This document shows, one piece after another, positions 11,601 through 47,635 of a DNA stretch of 64,000 nt. Position 1 is the first letter of the stretch, and each line of letters begins with the position of its first letter. A model generated the notes under the pieces. The model did no database searches and had not been told where the DNA came from. It was given only the letters and a program-made list of their open reading frames with translations. The translations under genes were made by a program, and so were the position numbers. Source of the stretch: Pedobacter agri PB92 (GTDB lineage: Bacteria > Bacteroidota > Bacteroidia > Sphingobacteriales > Sphingobacteriaceae); the NCBI RefSeq assembly GCF_000258495.1, contig NZ_AJLG01000001.1, positions 1 to 64,000 on the forward strand, written 5' to 3'.

Positions 11601-12398
11601 TTGTTCGATGATGCACAGGCTTTATTGAAACGAATTTTGGATGAAAAACTGCTTACTGCCAGGGCTGTAATTGGCTTCTGGCCAGCGAATGCGGTTGGAG
11701 ATGATATTGAGTTAGAAGTCAGAAGTCAGAAGTCAGGAGGCGGAAGTTTGAGCAGCAACTCAGTACTCGCGACTCCAGAATCCAAACTAGTAACTATCCA
11801 CACCCTTCGTCAACAGGCTGAGAAAGTAGATGGACAGCCATATTACGCCTTATCTGATTTTATCGCTCCAAAAGAGAGCGGCATTCAGGATTATTTTGGC
11901 GGCTTCGCAGTAACTGCAGGCATCGGAATAGATGAATTGGTGGCTGAATTTGAGGCTAATCATGACGATTATAATAGTATCATGGCCAAAGCATTGGCCG
12001 ATCGTTTGGCCGAGGCATTTGCAGAACGGATGCACGAGCGTGTTCGCAAAGAATATTGGGGATATGCTAAAGATGAAAATTTAAGCAATCAGGAGTTGAT
12101 CAAAGAAGAGTATGCAGGTATCCGCCCGGCTCCCGGTTATCCAGCTTGTCCGGAACATACGGAGAAGGGAACTTTGTTTCAACTGCTCGATGCTGAAAAT
12201 CAAATCGGTTTACATTTAACAGAAAGTTATGCCATGTATCCAACAGCTGCGGTTAGCGGATTCTATTTTGCACATCCAGAATCGAGGTATTTTGGCTTAG
12301 GGAAAATTACCAAAGATCAGATTGAAGATTATGCGGTTCGTAAAGGTATGTCTGTTGAAGAAGTGGAAAGATGGCTGAGCCCGAATTTGGCTTATTAA
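8682..12398 (+). CDS. metH: Cobalamin-dependent methionine synthase MetH
   Basis: MetH transfers the methyl group of methyltetrahydrofolate to homocysteine through cobalamin. All four modules are present in 1238 aa. The homocysteine domain has zinc ligands Cys242, Cys305 and Cys306. The pterin domain follows (about 350-620). The B12 cap and binding domain has DVHDIG with axial His757. The AdoMet reactivation domain carries [15 protein letters not shown]. The gene sits behind a SAM riboswitch and, with metF, forms a methionine unit interrupted by an orphan gene. An unusual low-complexity insertion encoded at about 11714-11795 (residues ~1011-1038) separates GDDIE from LRQQ; it is about 15 residues longer than in E. 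coli MetH and begins with three tandem AGAAGTC units. The reading frame is open throughout. Confidence 0.97.
11714..11734 (+). repeat. In-frame AGAAGTC x3 repeat inside metH
   Basis: Three perfect tandem AGAAGTC heptamers at 11714-11720, 11721-11727 and 11728-11734 start a low-complexity stretch reaching about 11795. Downstream, CTCGCGACTCC and ACTAGTAAC partly complement it, like the arms of the intergenic palindromes in this window. Confidence 0.7.
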
Positions 12399-12399
12399 A

Positions 12400-12431
12400 G
12401 TTGTAGGTTATAAGTTTAAAGTTATAGGTTT
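12400..12431 (+). repeat. Left inverted arm bracketing the four-helix-bundle gene
   Basis: GTTGTAGGTTATAAGTTTAA begins 1 nt after the metH stop. It matches, in inverse orientation, the repeat at 12851-12874 at about 18 of 22 positions. Confidence 0.6.
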
Positions 12432-12468
12432 GGGAGTATAATTAGCATAGGCCATTCATAACGCTTAT

Positions 12469-12843
12469 ATGGATAGAGATAAGAGAAATTATATTGATTT
12501 AGATGTTTGGAAAGGAGCAAGAGTACTCTCAAAGGAAGTATACTTAGCATCTTCGCAATTTCCTAGTGAAGAAAAATTTGGTTTAACAAGCCAAATAAGA
12601 AGAGCTGTTGTATCAATTCCATCAAATATTGCTGAAGGATGCGGTAGAAATTATCCAAAAGACAGCATCCAATTTTTTTACATTCCGAGAGGATCTATTT
12701 ATGAGGTTGAAACACAATTATACCTTGCTTTTGATTTAGATTTTATTTCTGAAACCTACTTGAGCGTACTATTAGAGAAACTTGAAACAACAAGGAAATT
12801 GCTTAATGGATTTATAAAATATTATCAAACGCTGGTTAAATAG
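12469..12843 (+). CDS. Four helix bundle protein (23S rRNA IVP / TIGR02436 family)
   Basis: A 124-aa protein with the family hallmarks: an N-terminal DLDVWKGARVLSKEVY helix, FGLTSQIRRAVVSIPSNIAEG, and GSIYEVETQLYLAFDLDFI, followed by a last helix. Relatives are encoded by intervening sequences in 23S rRNA and, more distantly, include the Avd accessory protein of diversity-generating retroelements. Most chromosomal copies have no known function. Here it separates metH from metF, two genes of one pathway, and is bracketed by inverted AACTTT-type repeats, which suggests insertion as a unit. One segment, QFFYIPRGS, deviates slightly from the usual FLxIARGS. Confidence 0.9.
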   Translation: MDRDKRNYIDLDVWKGARVLSKEVYLASSQFPSEEKFGLTSQIRRAVVSIPSNIAEGCGRNYPKDSIQFFYIPRGSIYEVETQLYLAFDLDFISETYLSVLLEKLETTRKLLNGFIKYYQTLVK

Positions 12844-12850
12844 GCATTCA

Positions 12851-12883
12851 GGCCTTTAACTTTTAACTCACAACATTTAACTC
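12851..12883 (-). repeat. Right inverted arm bracketing the four-helix-bundle gene
   Basis: GGCCTTTAACTTTTAACTCA and the following CAACATTTAACTC form the inverse counterpart of 12400-12431. The repeat ends 2 nt before the metF ATG. Confidence 0.6.
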
Positions 12884-24256: not shown

Positions 24257-24290
24257 AATCTTTGTGTACTTTGTGCCTTTGCGGTTAAAA
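24257..24290 (+). repeat. CTTTGCGGTTAA-type repeat
   Basis: AATCTTTGTGTACTTTGTGC then CTTTGCGGTTAA (24277-24288) ends 9 nt before the next ATG. The same 12-mer occurs inverted at 44875-44886 and direct at 45346-45357, around the GxxExxY gene. Confidence 0.65.
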
Positions 24291-41757: not shown

Positions 41758-43292
41758 ATGGCAGGCGGAAAAGAAACAACAAGGCAGCGGATGATCAATA
41801 TCATGTATTTGGTATTGTTAGCTATGCTTGCCTTAAACGTATCAGATACAATTTTAGATGCATTCAAAAATATCAATGATAGTTTGGATACTTCTAAAAA
41901 CAATGTAAACACCAGTATAAATCAGCTTTTTTCTGCATTCGAAAATTCGAAGTTGAAAGAAGAGCCTGCTCGAGCACAGCCTATTTACGAAAGGGCTAAG
42001 CAAGCACAGGCTGCTGCTGATGAGTTAAACAACTACATTGAAAACATCAAAAAAGAAGTTTACAACAGCTGGCGATGGAATTGATCCAGAAACGGATGAT
42101 TTAGTAAACAGATCTAATCAGGATATTGCTCAGAATATCATGATTAACCAGAAAAAGGCTACGCAGCTTAAGGACAAAATTAACGCGACAAGAGAGAAAT
42201 TAATTTCATTGTTAGATCCTGCGGATCGTGCAAACGTTGCTTTCTCTCTAGAAGCTAAAGATCCGGTTAGAAAAAGAAAAGGTAATTGGCAGGAAACTTA
42301 TTTTGGAGAGGGAACGCCTTTAACGGCTGCAATGACAATTTTAACAAAACTACAAGCTGATACAAAAAAATGCAGAGGCGGAAGTGGTTAAAAAGTTGTT
42401 TGGAAATATGGATAAGGCACAGGTAAATTTAGATCAGTTTGCAGCGGTAGCTGTGGCACCTACATCTTATGTAATCCAGGGTCAGCCGTATACAGCAGAG
42501 GTGTTTTTAACGGCAAGCGATTCAAGATCTACTCCTGATATCTCGGTTAACGGAAATAAACTATCTATCAAAGAAGGTAAAGGAACTTACACAGGTGGAA
42601 CAAGCAGTGTTGGTGAATTTACATGGGTGGGTACAATTCGTGTTCGTCAAACTGACGGGCAGGTTAAAGAATACAAAACCCAGCCACAAAAATATCAGGT
42701 AGCAAAACCATCTGCTACGGTTTCATCAACAAAAATGAATGTAATTTATGCAGGTATTCCGAATCCATTTACAGTTTCGGCAGCAGGATTTCCGTTAGAA
42801 AGTGTTCGTGCTACTATTTCAGCTGGATCAATGTCTGGCTCAAATGGAAATTACAACGTTAACGTTTCAGGTGGTCAGGTTGGAAGTGAAGTGTCTATTA
42901 ACGTAAGCGCAACAAATGCAGGTAAAACGGTTAGCCTAGGTGCTCAGAAATTCAGGGTAAAAGCTATTCCTAAGCCGGTTGCAAAAGTTGGTGGAAGAGC
43001 GGGCGGCGATATTGCGTCAGTTCAGTTAAAAAGCGAATCAGAAATCGAAGCAGATTTAGATGATTTTCCTTTTGATGTTAAATTTAAAATTCAGCGTTAC
43101 AAGTTAACGGTAATTAAACCACGTTCAGACGCGGTGACTATTTCTGGTAGTGGAGGAAGTTTTGCAGGTGCTGTAAAAGCTGCAATCAATTCTGTAACGC
43201 CGGGCACCAGAGTATTTTTTGAAGATATCGTTTCTGTGGGTCCTGATGGCCGCCAGAATGTTTTACCTTCATTAGCATTCAATGTTAAATAA
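41758..43292 (+). CDS. gldM: Type IX secretion motor protein GldM, two frameshifts here
   Basis: GldM spans from the inner-membrane motor across the periplasm toward the GldKN ring. The N-terminus has GGKETTRQRMINIMYLVLLAMLALNVS, the single span of the family. The frame breaks twice. Near 42059-42061 removing one T from the T3 run gives KKEVTTAGDGIDPET. At 42364-42370 removing one A from the A7 run gives DTKNAEAEVVKKLF. Rejoined, the protein has 510 aa, close to the usual ~513, with the C-terminal beta domains (VAPTSYVIQGQPYTAEVF; VMYAGIPNPF-type VIYAGIPNPFTV). As gldM is a core gene, sequencing error is likely, although a T3 error is less typical than one in A7. Confidence 0.93.
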
Positions 43293-43299
43293 GAAGAAG

Positions 43300-44208
43300 A
43301 TGAAAAGGATTGTAAGCATCATTGTTTTAGGTTTATGTACATCACTGGCTTTCGCTCAAAAAAAGCCGACGAAGCTGGCACCTAAAAAAGCTGCTGTTAC
43401 TTCGGCACCTGTTGCAGATACCGTAGCAGCTCCTGTTAAAGTTGCTAAGAAAAAGCTAAAAGTACCGCCTAAAGATGGTTTTTATGCTCGTAGAGATATT
43501 GATAGCACAGAGATGGTGCCACTGGCCGAGGTGCGTGACGAGGATGTATTTTACGCAAAACGTATCTGGAGAGAAATTGATTTAAGAGATACAGTTAATT
43601 CTGCGTTGAAATCTCCGAAATCGAGATTGATTGATGTATTATTATCGGCAATCAAGTCGGAAGAACTAACTGCGTATGCCCCGATTGACAGTGTTTTAAA
43701 TGAGGATGATGCATTTAATACGCCTATGACAGCTGATTCTGCAAGAATGGCTGCCGCAGGAACTGTTGAGGTTACAGATGCTAAAGCAGGTACAGTAAAA
43801 ACCGTAGCGAATGATCTCAATCCAGAATCATTTTTAAAATTCAGAATTAAAGAAGATTGGATTTTTGATGTGAAACGTTCCATCTTCGAACCACGTATTG
43901 TTGGTATTGCTCCAATGAAATATAACGAAGTTTCGAAACAATGGCAACCGGTTTTCTGGGTATACTATCCTGAAGCCCGCGAAATATTAACTAAAAAACG
44001 TTTAATTAACACCAATAACGATGCTTCTTCTTTGAGTTTTGACGATTTCTTTATTCGTCGCCTATTTAGTAGCTACATTGTAAAAGAATCTAATCCAGGA
44101 GATAACAAACTTAGAGACATTATTACGGACCCTAGACAGCGATTGTACGAATCAGAACGGATTAAAAAATCTGTTCTTGATTATGAACAGGGACTTTGGG
44201 AATATTAG
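43300..44208 (+). CDS. gldN: Type IX secretion / gliding protein GldN
   Basis: GldN (PorN) is the periplasmic partner of GldK in the type IX ring. The 302-aa product has a signal peptide (VSIIVLGLCTSLAFAQ), a Lys/Ala/Pro-rich linker and the GldN domain: VFYAKRIWREIDLRDTVN, SKSRLIDVLL-type KSPKSRLIDVLLSAI, EDWIFDVKRSIFEPRIVGIAP and VFWVYYPEAREIL. The ATG at 43300 gives the proper signal; it lies 7 nt after the gldM stop. The operon ends in a strong hairpin. Confidence 0.95.
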   Translation: MKRIVSIIVLGLCTSLAFAQKKPTKLAPKKAAVTSAPVADTVAAPVKVAKKKLKVPPKDGFYARRDIDSTEMVPLAEVRDEDVFYAKRIWREIDLRDTVNSALKSPKSRLIDVLLSAIKSEELTAYAPIDSVLNEDDAFNTPMTADSARMAAAGTVEVTDAKAGTVKTVANDLNPESFLKFRIKEDWIFDVKRSIFEPRIVGIAPMKYNEVSKQWQPVFWVYYPEAREILTKKRLINTNNDASSLSFDDFFIRRLFSSYIVKESNPGDNKLRDIITDPRQRLYESERIKKSVLDYEQGLWEY

Positions 44209-44244
44209 AAAAAAAAGCTTCGATGAAAATCGAAGCTTTTTTTT
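44209..44244. terminator. Bidirectional terminator after gldN
   Basis: AAAAAAAAGCTTCGAT, tetraloop GAAA, then ATCGAAGCTTTTTTTT: a perfect 16-bp inverted repeat with A8/T8 ends, between the convergent gldN and SprT-like genes. Confidence 0.93.
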
Positions 44245-44265
44245 GCTTTACTACGCTGTTGTGAT

Positions 44266-44874
44266 TTAATTTATTACAAAAACCTCCGCCAGTGGATTAA
44301 AAAGATATATTCGTTTATCATCCAGGCAAACACAGCGGTAACGTTTTCTAATACGTTCGCCTTTGGTGAAACGGCGGCCATCCTTGATTTTGAAAATGGT
44401 ATTTACAGGAAGTTGTTCTAAATGCAACGTTTCAGTTTGATCAGAATCATACTTCTTTAACGCTCTAGACAAATGCAAATCAGAACAGCTTGAAGCTGCT
44501 GGATTAGACATATAGTTATCAATAGCTTTATGAATATCGTCAGGAAAAATGTTCATTTCAAAAAACGGAACCATCATCCGCTGAAAGTTTTTCTTCCATT
44601 CTCCACCATGTGGTTTTACTTTGTTCTTGAAATCGTTCCAGGTTAAAAGATGTGCAAATTCATGAACTGTAGTCACCAGAAAAGCATAATGATTCAAATT
44701 AAAATTTACTGAAATCCGATGTCCTTTATCGCGGTAAGGATGGCGGTAATCTCCAAGTTTGGTAGAACGGGTTTTAGCGATTTTAAATTCGCACTGAAAA
44801 TAATCTATCCATTTTGCAATTAGCGGCGCCGCCTGAGCCGGCATATATTGCGCTAATAAATCAACTTTCTCCAT
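44266..44874 (-). CDS. SprT-like zinc metalloprotease domain protein
   Basis: The 202-aa protein matches the SprT-like fold: a helix leading to TTVHEFAHLLTW, with the zinc motif HEFAH at residues 71-75 and a further His (KPHGGEWKKNF) downstream. A C-terminal region carries HLSRALKKYDSD and RFTKGERIRKRYRCVCLDDKRIYLF, a possible zinc-ribbon remnant. Eukaryotic SPRTN cuts DNA-protein crosslinks; the bacterial role is not known. The start codon directly abuts a CTTTGCGGTTAA repeat on the minus strand, which would supply its 5' UTR. Confidence 0.87.
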   Translation of the reverse strand: MEKVDLLAQYMPAQAAPLIAKWIDYFQCEFKIAKTRSTKLGDYRHPYRDKGHRISVNFNLNHYAFLVTTVHEFAHLLTWNDFKNKVKPHGGEWKKNFQRMMVPFFEMNIFPDDIHKAIDNYMSNPAASSCSDLHLSRALKKYDSDQTETLHLEQLPVNTIFKIKDGRRFTKGERIRKRYRCVCLDDKRIYLFNPLAEVFVIN

Positions 44875-44919
44875 TTAACCGCAAAGTTCGCAAAGTTTTT
44901 CGCAAAGAAACAAAGAAAA
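44875..44919 (-). repeat. Left inverted repeat bracketing the GxxExxY gene
   Basis: TTAACCGCAAAG (44875-44886) then TTCGCAAAG and CGCAAAGAAAC. The terminal 12-mer is the exact reverse complement of 45346-45357; inner parts match more loosely. Confidence 0.7.
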
Positions 44920-44920
44920 G

Positions 44921-45298
44921 TTACAGGCCATTAGCGATACGTTTTAAACCATCCTTTAAAAGAATAACATTGAAATTCATTAACAAACCCAACTTATAAT
45001 TTCCTAGTTTCATATAAGTTAATGTTTGAGCCAAGTGCACATCATTTAAAGCTTCAACGCTTTTCAGCTCAAGGACTAATTTCCTTTCTACTAAAATATC
45101 AATTCTATAGCCACATTCCAACCTCACCTCTTCAAATATCAAAGGCATTATCTTTTCCTTTTCTACAAATAATCCAGCTTTAGCAATTTTGTAAAATAAG
45201 CATTCTTTGTAAGCACTTTCTAACAAGCCTGGCCCTAATGCATTATGTACTTCAATTGCTAAACCGATTACAACTCTTGATAATTCATTCTCACCCAT
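44921..45298 (-). CDS. GxxExxY protein
   Basis: The 125-aa protein carries the family signature GLLESAY (residues 24-30) after VVIGLAIEVHNALGPG, and LECGYRIDILVERKLVLELKSVEALND, which resembles a PD-(D/E)XK nuclease core (D...E-x-K). It ends LGLLMNFNVILLKDGLKR. The family is widespread in Bacteroidetes and has no established function. The gene lies inside a 483-bp unit whose ends are inverted CTTTGCGGTTAA repeats, a layout like that of the four-helix-bundle gene at 12469. This suggests a small mobile cassette. Confidence 0.9.
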   Translation of the reverse strand: MGENELSRVVIGLAIEVHNALGPGLLESAYKECLFYKIAKAGLFVEKEKIMPLIFEEVRLECGYRIDILVERKLVLELKSVEALNDVHLAQTLTYMKLGNYKLGLLMNFNVILLKDGLKRIANGL

Positions 45299-45317
45299 AA
45301 TTTTAATTTAGCTTAGT

Positions 45318-45357
45318 GTTCTTTGCGCCTTTTTTCTTAGCGTTCTTTGCGGTTAAA
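45318..45357 (+). repeat. Right inverted repeat bracketing the GxxExxY gene
   Basis: GTTCTTTGCGCC and CTTAGCGTTCTTTGCGGTTAA contain two CTTTGCG units. The last 12 nt are the exact inverse of 44875-44886. Confidence 0.7.
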
Positions 45358-45365
45358 CTAATACT

Positions 45366-47635
45366 CTACTCCTCCGATGGAAATAACGACGCCAGCACCA
45401 GCTTAATCTCACCAAAAGAATAATCCTTACCCAAAAAATCCCGAATCGTTGCCATTGATTTTGTTTTTTGGCTTTCAACAGCTTCGCTAATGTTTCTGAT
45501 TTTATTTGGTTTCACCAGTTTAGCTACATCAATTTGTTGCGTAGATACATAATAAGCCAAATGACCTTCGATAGTTGTAACTGACAAACCTCGTTCTTTT
45601 GCAATCTCCGCTAAAGTCTTACCTTGCTCATAAAGTTCAAAACTTACCAGTTTGGTATCTATTTTTGGCTCTTTTTCTTTTTCTCTACAGCCGATTTCAC
45701 TTTCAAAACCTGACCTTTTAGCTGAATAGCTTTTTGTAATTGTTGGTTCCGTTCAGAAATGTTTAACAATGCATCAGTATCTGCTTTGCTAAACTCCTTT
45801 CCATCAATAATGGCCAGCAGTAAGGCCTTGCCTTTGTGCATCTTTTTTAGCTGCTCATAAACCAGTATCTCCAATTCAAGCAATTCGGTCAAATATGTCT
45901 TTATTCCCTTTTCTTCCTTCACTGCTTCAATTTGGGCTAGAAACTTATCCGAAACCGCTTTAACCAGCGGATTAAAATATTTCAATGCCGCTTCAACCCT
46001 TTTAGAAACATTAAATAAAGTATGCTCCGTTTGATGTGCAAAAAGGTTTTTAAGCTGGTTAATAAAAGTATCTGCCGTTACTGTGATTTTTTGAAAATCC
46101 TTGTATAAATCCATTGTCCAGCTATCGTAACGCTGTTTTGTAGATTTTGCCTCGCTCTTATCGAAAGTTTCTACATGCTCTTTCACGTAATAGCGAACGA
46201 CGTTCAAATCGAAAGCGGCCAACAGGTAAGTTCTAATGAAATCGTAGCTTTCCAAACTAATCTGCTCTGTTAAAACTTCAGAGGGTTGTTTTGTACTCGA
46301 AAAATAATGGATGTTTTGGTCTTGCTGCAAACCATTTTCACGCAGATGCGAAGTTAAAACCAAGCCTTTTAGGGAGCGTAAACGCGAAAGCGCAACATAA
46401 GCTTGCCCAGGGGCAAAAGCATCGCCAATATCAATAATTGCTTTATCAAAAGTTAACCCCTGACTTTTATGCACCGTAATTGCCCAGGCCAATTTTATCG
46501 GATATTGTACAAATGAACCTGCAACATTTTCAGCAATTTCGTTTGTGGCCTCATTCAATTTATACTTCACATTTTCCCATGTATAGGGTGAAACAGAAAT
46601 TACGGTTCGTTCCTCAGGAAGTTCAATTTCAATCATATCCTTTTCGATATGATGTACCACACCTATTTTTCCATTATAATAACGTTTTTCGGCAGTCATA
46701 TCATTTTTAATGAACATGACTTGTGCCCCAACTTTAAGTTCTAAACTTTTTTCATTCGGGTAAGCATATTCATTAAATTCACCGGTAACCTTGGCTTCAA
46801 AAAAGTAAGATTTGGTTTTGAGTTGTGTTAATCGCTCACGATTAATGGCGTCAGCTTTGTTATTGTGAGTGGTTAAAGTGATGTAGTTTTCATCCGCTGC
46901 AGGCTTAAAATCTTGCTTAAAGTGTTGTCGTAATAAAGCGGTATCTTCAGGTGTAATTTTATTGTTCCTTAAATTATTCAATAAGTTAATAAACACGGCA
47001 TCATCCTGGCGGTAAATCTTATCCAACTCAATATACACCGGTGGATTATTCTGCAGTGCTAAAGCATCAAAGAAATAAATGCTTTTATAAAAACCGGCCA
47101 TTATCCGCCATTCATCGTTTTTGACCACGGGAGGCAGCTGATGTAAATCGCCAATAAATAATAACTGAACACCACCAAAGGGTACATTTCTATTTCTTCT
47201 GATATAACGCAAGGAAAAATCAATGGCATCGAGCATATCTGCCCGAAGCATACTCACCTCATCAATAACCAGTAATTCTAGTTCCTGAATCATACGCCTT
47301 TTGTTGCCCTGCATGTTTAAATGCTTCACAATGGTGCGTGGCGTATTGAAGTTAAAATTGATATTTTGGTTGATTAAACTTCCTGCCGCATCCGGAAAAA
47401 ATGCACCAAACGGCAATTGAAAAAGTGAATGAATGGTAACGCCAGAAGCATTAATTGCTGCAATGCCGGTTGGGGCACAAATCATCGCTTTTTTATGCGT
47501 AAGCTGAATGAGTTTGCGTAAAAAAGTAGTTTTACCTGTTCCCGCTTTCCCGGTTAAGAAAACATGTTTAGAGGTATAATTAACAAACTTCGCCGCAATT
47601 TCTGCGGGCATAGAAGTTTCATCTAATTCTGGCAT
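45366..47635 (-). CDS. Pif1/RecD-like helicase with C-terminal HTH domain, frameshifted
   Basis: The main frame (47635 to 45659) encodes a superfamily 1 helicase: GKAGTGKT (29-36, Walker A), LVIDEVSML (Walker B), FGGVQLLFIGDLHQLPPV, QVMFIKND and the AWAITVHKSQGLTFDKAI / GQAYVALSRLRSLKGL motifs, all Pif1/RecD2-like. It stops after EKKKKSQK. Adding one A to the A5 run near 45673 continues as EPKIDTKLVSFELYEQGKTL and joins a second frame ending at 45366, a helix-turn-helix (HTH_40-type) tail, LAEIAKERGLSVTTIEGHL. The rejoined protein has 756 aa, the usual length of this Bacteroidetes family. It may act in recombination or replication restart; this is not established. Confidence 0.9.

Follow-up and report, generated by a model that had tools for sequence, protein, structure and literature searches.

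Facing heptamer arrays flank the GxxExxY gene of the window

The window (the whole 64,000-nt stretch of Pedobacter agri PB92 DNA analyzed here) contains a gene for a 125–amino acid (aa) GxxExxY protein located between an SprT-like gene and a C-terminal HTH_40 piece (Table 1). These three genes and the neighboring helicase gene are all on the minus strand. An earlier note had described two 12-mers around the GxxExxY gene as exact reverse complements. The 12-mer TTAACCGCAAAG is present at 44875-44886, and its exact reverse complement exists, with the difference that it occupies 45345-45356 and not 45346-45357. The looser matching reported beyond the 12-mers was also found (22 nt at 86%, 44874-44895 and 45336-45357), and the GxxExxY gene is, as claimed, the only one enclosed.

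Table 1. Coordinates of the GxxExxY unit, its neighbors, and a solo arm in the window.
Feature	Position	Strand	Description
Solo arm without gene	24260-24285	−	Canonical three-unit form ACCGCAAAGGCACAAAGTACACAAAG
SprT-like host gene	44266-44874	−	PF10263 (E = 2.5e-6); start codon touches left arm
Left arm	44874-44915	+	TTTAACC terminus, then four CGCAAAG-like heptamers
GxxExxY gene	44921-45298	−	125 aa; PF13366 PDDEXK_3 / TIGR04256; predicted RecB/Cas4-like nuclease fold
Right arm	45312-45357	−	Four heptamers and GGTTAAA terminus, inverted relative to left arm
HTH_40 C-terminal piece, host gene	45366-45587	−	PF14493 (E = 3.2e-14); beside Pif1/RecD-like helicase

The inverted 12-mers are the outer ends of two heptamer arrays that abut the gene. 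Direct reading of the left arm gives CGCAAAG starting at 44880, 44889, and 44901 and AACAAAG at 44909. On the complement strand, the right arm reads CGCAAAG (45345-45351), CGCTAAG (45336-45342), CGCAAAG (45321-45327), and CACTAAG (45312-45318), i.e., in plus-strand letters, CTTAGTG at 45312, CTTTGCG at 45321, CTTAGCG at 45336, and CTTTGCG at 45345. The heptamer can be written as degenerate C[GA]C[AT]AAG, and the two arrays face each other across the gene. A left arm of this type is also present in orthologous loci of other species.

The inverted-arm score of the window locus corresponds to p = 0.005, as judged from 200 flank shuffles. Genome-wide, there are 17 exact occurrences of the 12-mer versus 6 of the pattern read backwards; when up to two mismatches were allowed in the window alone, 13 occurrences were found versus 8.9 expected, i.e., without a clear excess. 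By itself, the window locus is modest evidence; what is decisive is that arms of differing sequence recur at other GxxExxY genes. In the 43800-46200 region, all Rfam matches stayed below the gathering score. An RNA family at the unit was rejected: the five subthreshold Rfam matches are all within 44163-44322, outside the unit.

Some reading frames in this part of the window may be interrupted. The HTH_40 piece and the helicase frame (45659-47635) are separate open reading frames (ORFs) that may be one frameshifted gene. At 41758-43292, a gldM-like gene is read in three overlapping frames (41758-42084, 42038-42391, and 42384-43292); the arrangement suggests assembly frame errors.

The GxxExxY protein is a predicted Cas4/RecB-like nuclease

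The window protein matched PF13366 (E = 4.2e-38; 130.7 bits, cut-off 22) and TIGR04256 (E = 1.3e-38; 131.9 bits, cut-off 35), and its Pfam search yielded no family besides PF13366. An AlphaFold2 model with a mean pLDDT of 96.2 was most similar in the Protein Data Bank to SSO0001 (4ic1; Z = 9.9, rmsd 3.3, 99 residues), followed by a Spirosoma restriction-like protein (3ijm; Z = 8.4). The Z values obtained for Cas4 Pcal_0546 (7.0) and the Hjc resolvase (6.8) may reflect only the common fold. Foldseek alone produced no match at E ≤ 0.001, the best being lambda exonuclease at 0.0099. A sequence search for a solved relative gave a lone match with E = 0.67, which was dismissed.

Among 100 proteins of the genus without stops, D67 and E77 are retained in all, K79 in 98, Q91 and Y95 in 97 each, and E27 in 96. 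SSO0001, which we take to be a Cas4, and the D...ExK and QxxxY residues, presumably a RecB/Cas4-type motif, are in line with the structural matches. As judged from the model and the conserved residues, the GxxExxY protein is a predicted Cas4/RecB-like PD-(D/E)XK nuclease with conserved catalytic residues. The PD-(D/E)XK-like core proposed in the earlier note is thus backed both by fold matches and by the conservation of D67, E77, K79, Q91, and Y95; residue conservation had been set beforehand as a refutation test, and D67 and E77 turned out to be invariant.

The protein resembles Cas4/RecB nucleases (SSO0001, lambda exonuclease, and Cas4) in its predicted fold and D-ExK and QxxxY residues. Unlike Cas4, it is only 125 aa long, has only two cysteines, and is encoded between repeat arms. 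Cas4 has an Fe-S cluster, for which a 125-aa protein with two cysteines has no room. A defense gene was considered and rejected, as PADLOC returned only weak matches (Cas4, E = 0.028; PDC-M36A, E = 0.021).

GxxExxY genes were detected in 151 of 296 genomes of the phylum, with up to 12 PF13366 matches per genome in the genus. The literature searched, which mostly excludes subscription journals, contained no report tying the GxxExxY/PDDEXK_3 family to repeats, and no assigned function for GxxExxY proteins was found in it. In the accessible part of a reverse transcriptase classification, the authors' pipeline called one reverse transcriptase–adjacent gene GxxExxY, and a second program gave cas4 (PMC8934634); the part of an algal virus gene table at hand has a GxxExxY entry (PMC12085832).

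Inverted arms recur at GxxExxY loci

To detect inverted arms, the left flank was matched against the reverse-complemented right flank at 107 GxxExxY loci of the genus. At p ≤ 0.01, arms were found at 67 of the 107 loci, a count based on a slightly shorter flank than the one in the per-locus arm table. The flank shuffles keep base composition only. Two control families were run in the same way. Inverted arms were detected at 1 of 30 loci of YraN (PF02021), selected because it is likewise a small single gene, and at 2 of 30 loci of SprT; in other species, the flank upstream of SprT is the site of the window unit. Direct (noninverted) matches at the same threshold were seen at 16/107 GxxExxY, 4/30 YraN, and 1/30 SprT loci. 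Once the loci were assigned to 24 positions in the genus, at least one armed locus was present at 16 positions, half or more of the loci were armed at 14, and no arm match at p ≤ 0.01 was obtained at 8. Arms at GxxExxY loci are therefore common, not universal.

A second set of 80 loci came from named records, mostly of other genera; four were left out for short flanks. Inverted arms were present at 54 of the remaining 76 loci and direct repeats at 22. These records are mostly from Bacteroidetes, with a few labeled Planctomycetota, Pyrinomonadaceae/Acidobacteria, Ignavibacteria/Melioribacter, or Rhodospirillales and one label, Rhizobium, that is perhaps due to mis-binning. Flanking arms were seen in loci labeled Planctomycetota, Pyrinomonadaceae, and Ignavibacteria. 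Recurrence in both sets and the controls rule out a chance repeat, and tabulation of the flanks shows that arms are nonrandomly placed relative to GxxExxY genes.

Arm dialects follow the GxxExxY protein tree

Most arms are built alike: TT(A)ACC comes first, and then three or four degenerate heptamers with similar spacing. Their letters differ among loci and agree within a locus: the sequences include, besides that of the window, TTTACCACAGAG, TTACCATATAAGA, CCCGCAGATT, TTGCCACGGAAACACGGAA, CCAGGATTTTTAGGATT, and others, and, by inspection, the arms start with T(T)ACC, TTGCC, TCCCGC, CCAGG, or TGATT. To compare these dialects with protein phylogeny, we used 60 of the 67 loci armed at p ≤ 0.01, omitting three without an assignable dialect and four with internal stops. 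On the tree of 60 proteins, six dialects require 7 changes (the minimum is 5) compared to a mean of 34.9 after shuffling, with 0 of 200 shuffles as low; the dialect classes are patterns chosen after the arms had been seen, and near-copies inflate the difference.

At the site next to the SprT-like gene (the SprT site), three dialects occur, depending on the species, and each goes with a separate protein group. The nine loci with cGAG arms form one branch (SH-aLRT 95) within a group of 19 rows, the other ten of which carry cAAG arms. Two loci with TAAG arms encode proteins of a distant TAAG clade that is itself found at three other positions. Since dialects at this site track protein groups, arms follow the protein and not the place. 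Sister groups at the window site with CGCAAAG and CACAGAG arms (10 and 9 proteins, respectively) have nonoverlapping differences at only 12 alignment columns: 4, 5, 7, 9, 10, 43, 44, 100, 103, 112, 118, and 125. If the nuclease does read the arms, such dialect-clade pairs would provide ready examples of switches in protein-DNA specificity within a nuclease of 125 aa.

A broken GxxExxY copy, split over two frames (L012/L013), is present elsewhere in the window's own genome (C9:9995-10334); its flanks resemble arms of the CACGGAA dialect.

Gene-free arms are dispersed outside of genes

The window also contains a solo arm (Table 1), downstream of which no inverted partner was found. The strict three-unit cAAG pattern (dialect 1) was found at 282 sites, distributed over 38 of the 99 genomes of the genus; the same pattern read backwards had no match in the 99 genomes. 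When one cAAG site per genome was inspected, 28 of 30 loci had no GxxExxY gene up to 1.5 kb on either side. Dispersed arms overlapped ORFs of at least 100 aa at 7 of 50 sites compared to 1910 of 2500 random positions (5/30 versus 1158/1500 and 2/20 versus 752/1000 in the two sets).

Some of the dispersed arms have an inverted partner, in outward orientation. In five genomes (G008, G088, G037, G043, and G091), an inverted partner within 110 nt was detected downstream of 24 of 65 sites and upstream of 3 of 65, with differing spacers. This count used 69 of the 78 listed sites, 65 after merging; gene units and a few sites were omitted, partners were merged, and short flanks were skipped. Scoring of one site per genome gave 11/28 downstream and 0/28 upstream partners, and the second dialect gave 6/20 and 1/20. 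Doublets are a minority of the sites tested (24/65), the rest being without a detected partner. The dispersed arms are solo or form gene-less palindromes with short, diverse spacers. In the window's own genome, 15 exact 12-mers lie away from the gene: three read as palindromes (L008, L334, and L335), about six as solo arms, and the remainder as chance matches. On contigs C14, C15, and C23 of another genome (G005), TTGCCACGGAA arms form head-to-tail arrays, many of them 67 to 69 nt apart.

We next consider which positions of the arms are constrained. In 37 partner arms, mismatches to the consensus were found at 106 of 629 motif positions and 99 of 222 variable positions; 8 of the 37 also fit the search pattern, partners with fewer than 15 of 26 consensus positions were omitted, and some of the rows kept show an evident one-base misalignment. 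In gene units, the two arms have the same letter at 16 of 66 variable or linker positions, which is about chance (one orthologous position, a small set, with the motif letters fixed by the search pattern). Constraint on a hairpin was accordingly rejected, as base pairing seems not to be conserved. The pattern of constraint points to recognition of the arm sequence and less to pairing between arms.

These data bear on an RNA-level explanation, according to which arms pair in a transcript and the hairpin with its frame is processed out, as happens with 23S ribosomal RNA (rRNA) intervening sequences (IVSs). There is precedent: the available part of one paper describes a Coxiella IVS in which inverted repeats form a stem around an ORF and states that RNase III excises IVSs (PMC4990558), and in the window's own genome, four of seven IVP genes lie between inverted arms at p ≤ 0.01. 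However, what is conserved is the motif and not pairing (the one orthologous position compared), solo arms are frequent, and the unit region lacks an Rfam family at gathering score. We consider this explanation the least probable of those weighed here.

Arms co-occur with the GxxExxY gene

We compared the presence of arms in genomes with the GxxExxY gene and in gene-less genomes, defined as those with no PF13366 match at E ≤ 0.001. In the genus, dialect 1 was found in 38 of 66 gene-bearing and 0 of 33 gene-less genomes, and dialect 2 in 34 of 66 and 0 of 33, respectively; the second-dialect pattern read backwards had no match in genus genomes. A looser pattern was positive in 89 of 296 genomes of the phylum. 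The gene was present in 85 of these 89 compared to 66 of 207 pattern-free genomes, and 597 of 603 arm sites fell into gene-bearing genomes; the pattern read backwards gave four sites. The motif occurs without the gene in four genomes of the phylum and the gene without the motif in 66 of 151. The association persists when stratified by family (p = 3e-6; strata covering 215 of the 296 genomes). The motif is present in 22 family groups, in one of them only in a gene-less genome, and was absent from all six gene-bearing genomes of one family (f17). The correlation may partly reflect descent.

Dependence on the cognate gene was assessed for each dialect. Twelve genomes with a cAAG-type protein (position 2 or its relative L022) have on average 13.4 cAAG arms compared to 2.2 in the other 54 gene-bearing genomes (p = 1e-6); protein type is known for fetched loci only, and the group of 54 may include the same type. 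For the TTGCCACGGAA dialect (dialect 2), the number of sites is 3, 3, 6, 11, and 13 in five genomes where an intact cognate gene was found, compared to 1, 2, 4, 7, 8, and 10 in six surveyed genomes where none was. As the former counts show no clear excess over the latter, dependence on the cognate gene is seen for one of the two dialects only. Overall, recurrence at loci, agreement between dialects and protein tree, and co-occurrence across the phylum bear out the view that the arms belong to the GxxExxY gene.

One could suppose that another enzyme, e.g., a RAYT-like Y1/HUH transposase, is responsible for moving the arms and that the GxxExxY gene is a passenger. The closest known system does use an HUH enzyme, as far as the accessible parts of the reports go (PMC3116915, PMC8049555). 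Yet dialects agree with the GxxExxY protein tree, neither of the two dialects tested occurs in any of the 33 gene-less genomes of the genus, and the GxxExxY gene is alone between the arms, making a passenger role very unlikely.

Sites are occupied or empty, and gene units look old and mostly inherited

To look for empty sites in related genomes, we used the SprT-like gene (found in 98 of 99 genus genomes) and the HTH_40 piece as anchors, and both occupied and empty versions were found. In 30 orthologous SprT-site regions from the closest genomes, a full-length GxxExxY gene is present in 21, including the window; others have a partial gene or none. One gene-free region carries a left arm of the window type (G034) and another a TAAG-type arm (G091), while in two regions (G051 and G020), a window-type arm lies beside a cGAG unit. 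The SprT site has therefore gained, lost, or exchanged units. At one gene-free SprT site (L097, genome G082), a long low-complexity palindrome, AAAGACTAAAGG... / ...CTTTGGTCTTTC, is located where relatives have GxxExxY units.

A search with joined flanks yielded contiguous alignments across several sites. At the L011 site, a 524-nt unit is missing in genome G075, and the neighboring sequence continues on both sides. The L054 site contains, depending on the genome, a ACCACAAAG hairpin, a GAGATATGAGA hairpin of another family, or none (G006), and at least 13 further genomes have spans of 380 to 410 nt, about the insert-free length as judged from match lengths only. The same intergenic slot with a ACCACAAAG hairpin, a GAGATATGAGA hairpin, or none comprises L054, L284-L286, L299, L301, L307, and L308. 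It seems that hairpins of one family take the place of those of another, unrelated family at a given location.

No target-site duplication was recognizable; the sites compared have diverged, with roughly 70 to 83% identity in spanning matches. In the genus genomes compared, the search for palindromes or gene units recently copied to new places found none. There are three pairs of gene units within the same genome, the best being 77% identical, and among palindromes the only similar pairs scored 0.86 (in tandem) and 0.79. Of the 24 positions in the genus, 19 are common to two or more species (partial SprT-site genes in G073 and G072 were omitted and eight duplicate records merged). The window protein matched 8 of 72,556 plasmid records and no phage records. 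Given that no target duplication was recognized, that copies have limited identity, and that positions are shared, gene units look old and mostly vertically inherited, unlike a hopping element. As no recent copies were found, spreading, if it occurs, is slow or has ended. A classical insertion sequence was rejected because near-identical copies are lacking in the same genome and no target duplication was seen among the diverged sites compared. The suggestion of the earlier note that the nuclease mobilizes its own repeat ends is upheld in part: the arms belong to the gene, and the nuclease would be a candidate for moving them.

The arms could also be binding sites for a host job such as repair, replication, chromosome handling, or gene control, being selected and immobile. 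Conserved motif letters combined with drifting linkers, the lack of recent copies, and mostly shared positions would fit such sites. In contrast, many copies are solo, tandem arrays occur, and a single site can have hairpins of different dialects or none depending on the species, for which reason mobile or parasitic DNA is a better fit than fixed regulatory sites. We consider a host job unlikely.

Less likely still, in our view, is a homing-like process, in which the nuclease would cut gene-less palindromes, its own gene would be copied into the break, and the inserted gene would make the palindrome unusable as a target. Palindromes that share this design but lack a gene do exist, the gene in gene units is exactly between the arms, and one site can carry different gene types with their own arms. 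However, the gene-free SprT sites that were read show a solo arm, a palindrome of another kind, or nothing, and no recent event was seen.

A proposed partnership between a nuclease and its repeats resembles the REPIN/RAYT system

The accessible parts of papers on REPINs and RAYTs describe dispersed inverted doublets with diverse spacers, singlets, gene copies flanked by their own repeat flavor, and vertical inheritance of RAYTs (PMC8049555, PMC3116915), which are reported to be absent from plasmids (PMC8049555); REPIN excision has been followed by deep sequencing (PMC3116915). The similarities are extensive: the GxxExxY gene is flanked by a repeat dispersed in the same genome; arms are extragenic and form inverted doublets with short, diverse spacers as well as singlets; and distinct GxxExxY copies, each with its own repeat flavor, are mostly inherited vertically and nearly absent from plasmids. 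There are also clear differences. The enzyme is a putative PD-(D/E)XK nuclease (PF13366) and not an HUH Y1 transposase; the arm is a heptamer array, whereas REP is a single hairpin; a genome can have up to 12 PF13366 matches; and doublets are in the minority. A REP sequence has a GTAG or CGTC tag at one end, according to the part of the source seen (PMC3733652); GxxExxY arms, by inspection, have neither. Because the enzyme superfamily and the build of the repeat differ, the unit is not a member of the REPIN/RAYT group, although it seems to work alike. MITEs and insertion sequences share with the GxxExxY unit inverted ends around a single gene and short gene-less versions, but the latter has degenerate multi-unit ends, no target duplication was seen, and there are no near-identical copies.

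We therefore favor, as the probable explanation, a REPIN/RAYT-like partnership in which a non-HUH nuclease recognizes the arms. From the observed architecture, arm-gene association, dialect-clade agreement, motif conservation, and occupied and empty sites, we infer recognition of the arms by the nuclease and their mobility. The window unit would then be one resident of a two-part system. The first part would be a gene for a small Cas4/RecB-type nuclease, present as divergent copies and mostly inherited vertically; the second would be the short arms that bracket this gene and are also scattered outside of genes, alone or as inverted pairs. The nuclease would recognize arms of its own dialect and act on arm pairs by cutting or nicking them, after which repair or strand transfer would occasionally create, copy, or maintain palindromes. 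Its role for the arms would thus correspond to that of the HUH transposase RAYT for REPINs. The readings considered here are not mutually exclusive: homing is one way in which the favored partnership could work.

More tentatively, it is possible that the nuclease is an equivalent of RAYT outside the HUH superfamily, i.e., that it reads the arms and keeps gene-less palindromes replicating, with a separate dialect per clade, in about 20 family groups. If so, the nuclease and repeats co-evolve, dialect switches record changes of DNA specificity, and REPIN-type repeat populations have at least two origins, involving unrelated enzymes. GxxExxY proteins are common, and the link to a repeat family supplies them with a testable substrate.

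An unrelated protein has a similar layout

The earlier note had likened the size and layout of the GxxExxY unit to those of a four-helix-bundle unit with an unrelated protein. IVP four-helix-bundle genes of the window's own genome do lie between inverted arms (four of seven) and encode unrelated proteins. Like GxxExxY units, IVP/S23 (PF05635) units consist of a small ORF alone between inverted arms, and several arms with 7-nt repeats are found among them in this genome. They differ in arm sequences, and the GxxExxY unit is located between protein genes and not in an rRNA stem. Also unlike the GxxExxY unit, an rRNA IVS is cut from rRNA (PMC4990558, seen in part). The portion of the literature on TAACTGA intergenic repeats at hand makes no mention of S23, IVP, four-helix, or intervening. 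In the window, an IVP gene (12496-12810) lies between inverted TTAAAGTTGTAGGTTATAAG-type arms (12395-12880, p = 0.006), and several IVP arms have, by eye, a 7-nt period. The arrangement suggests that IVP proteins are a second, unrelated kind of protein with a similar way of life.
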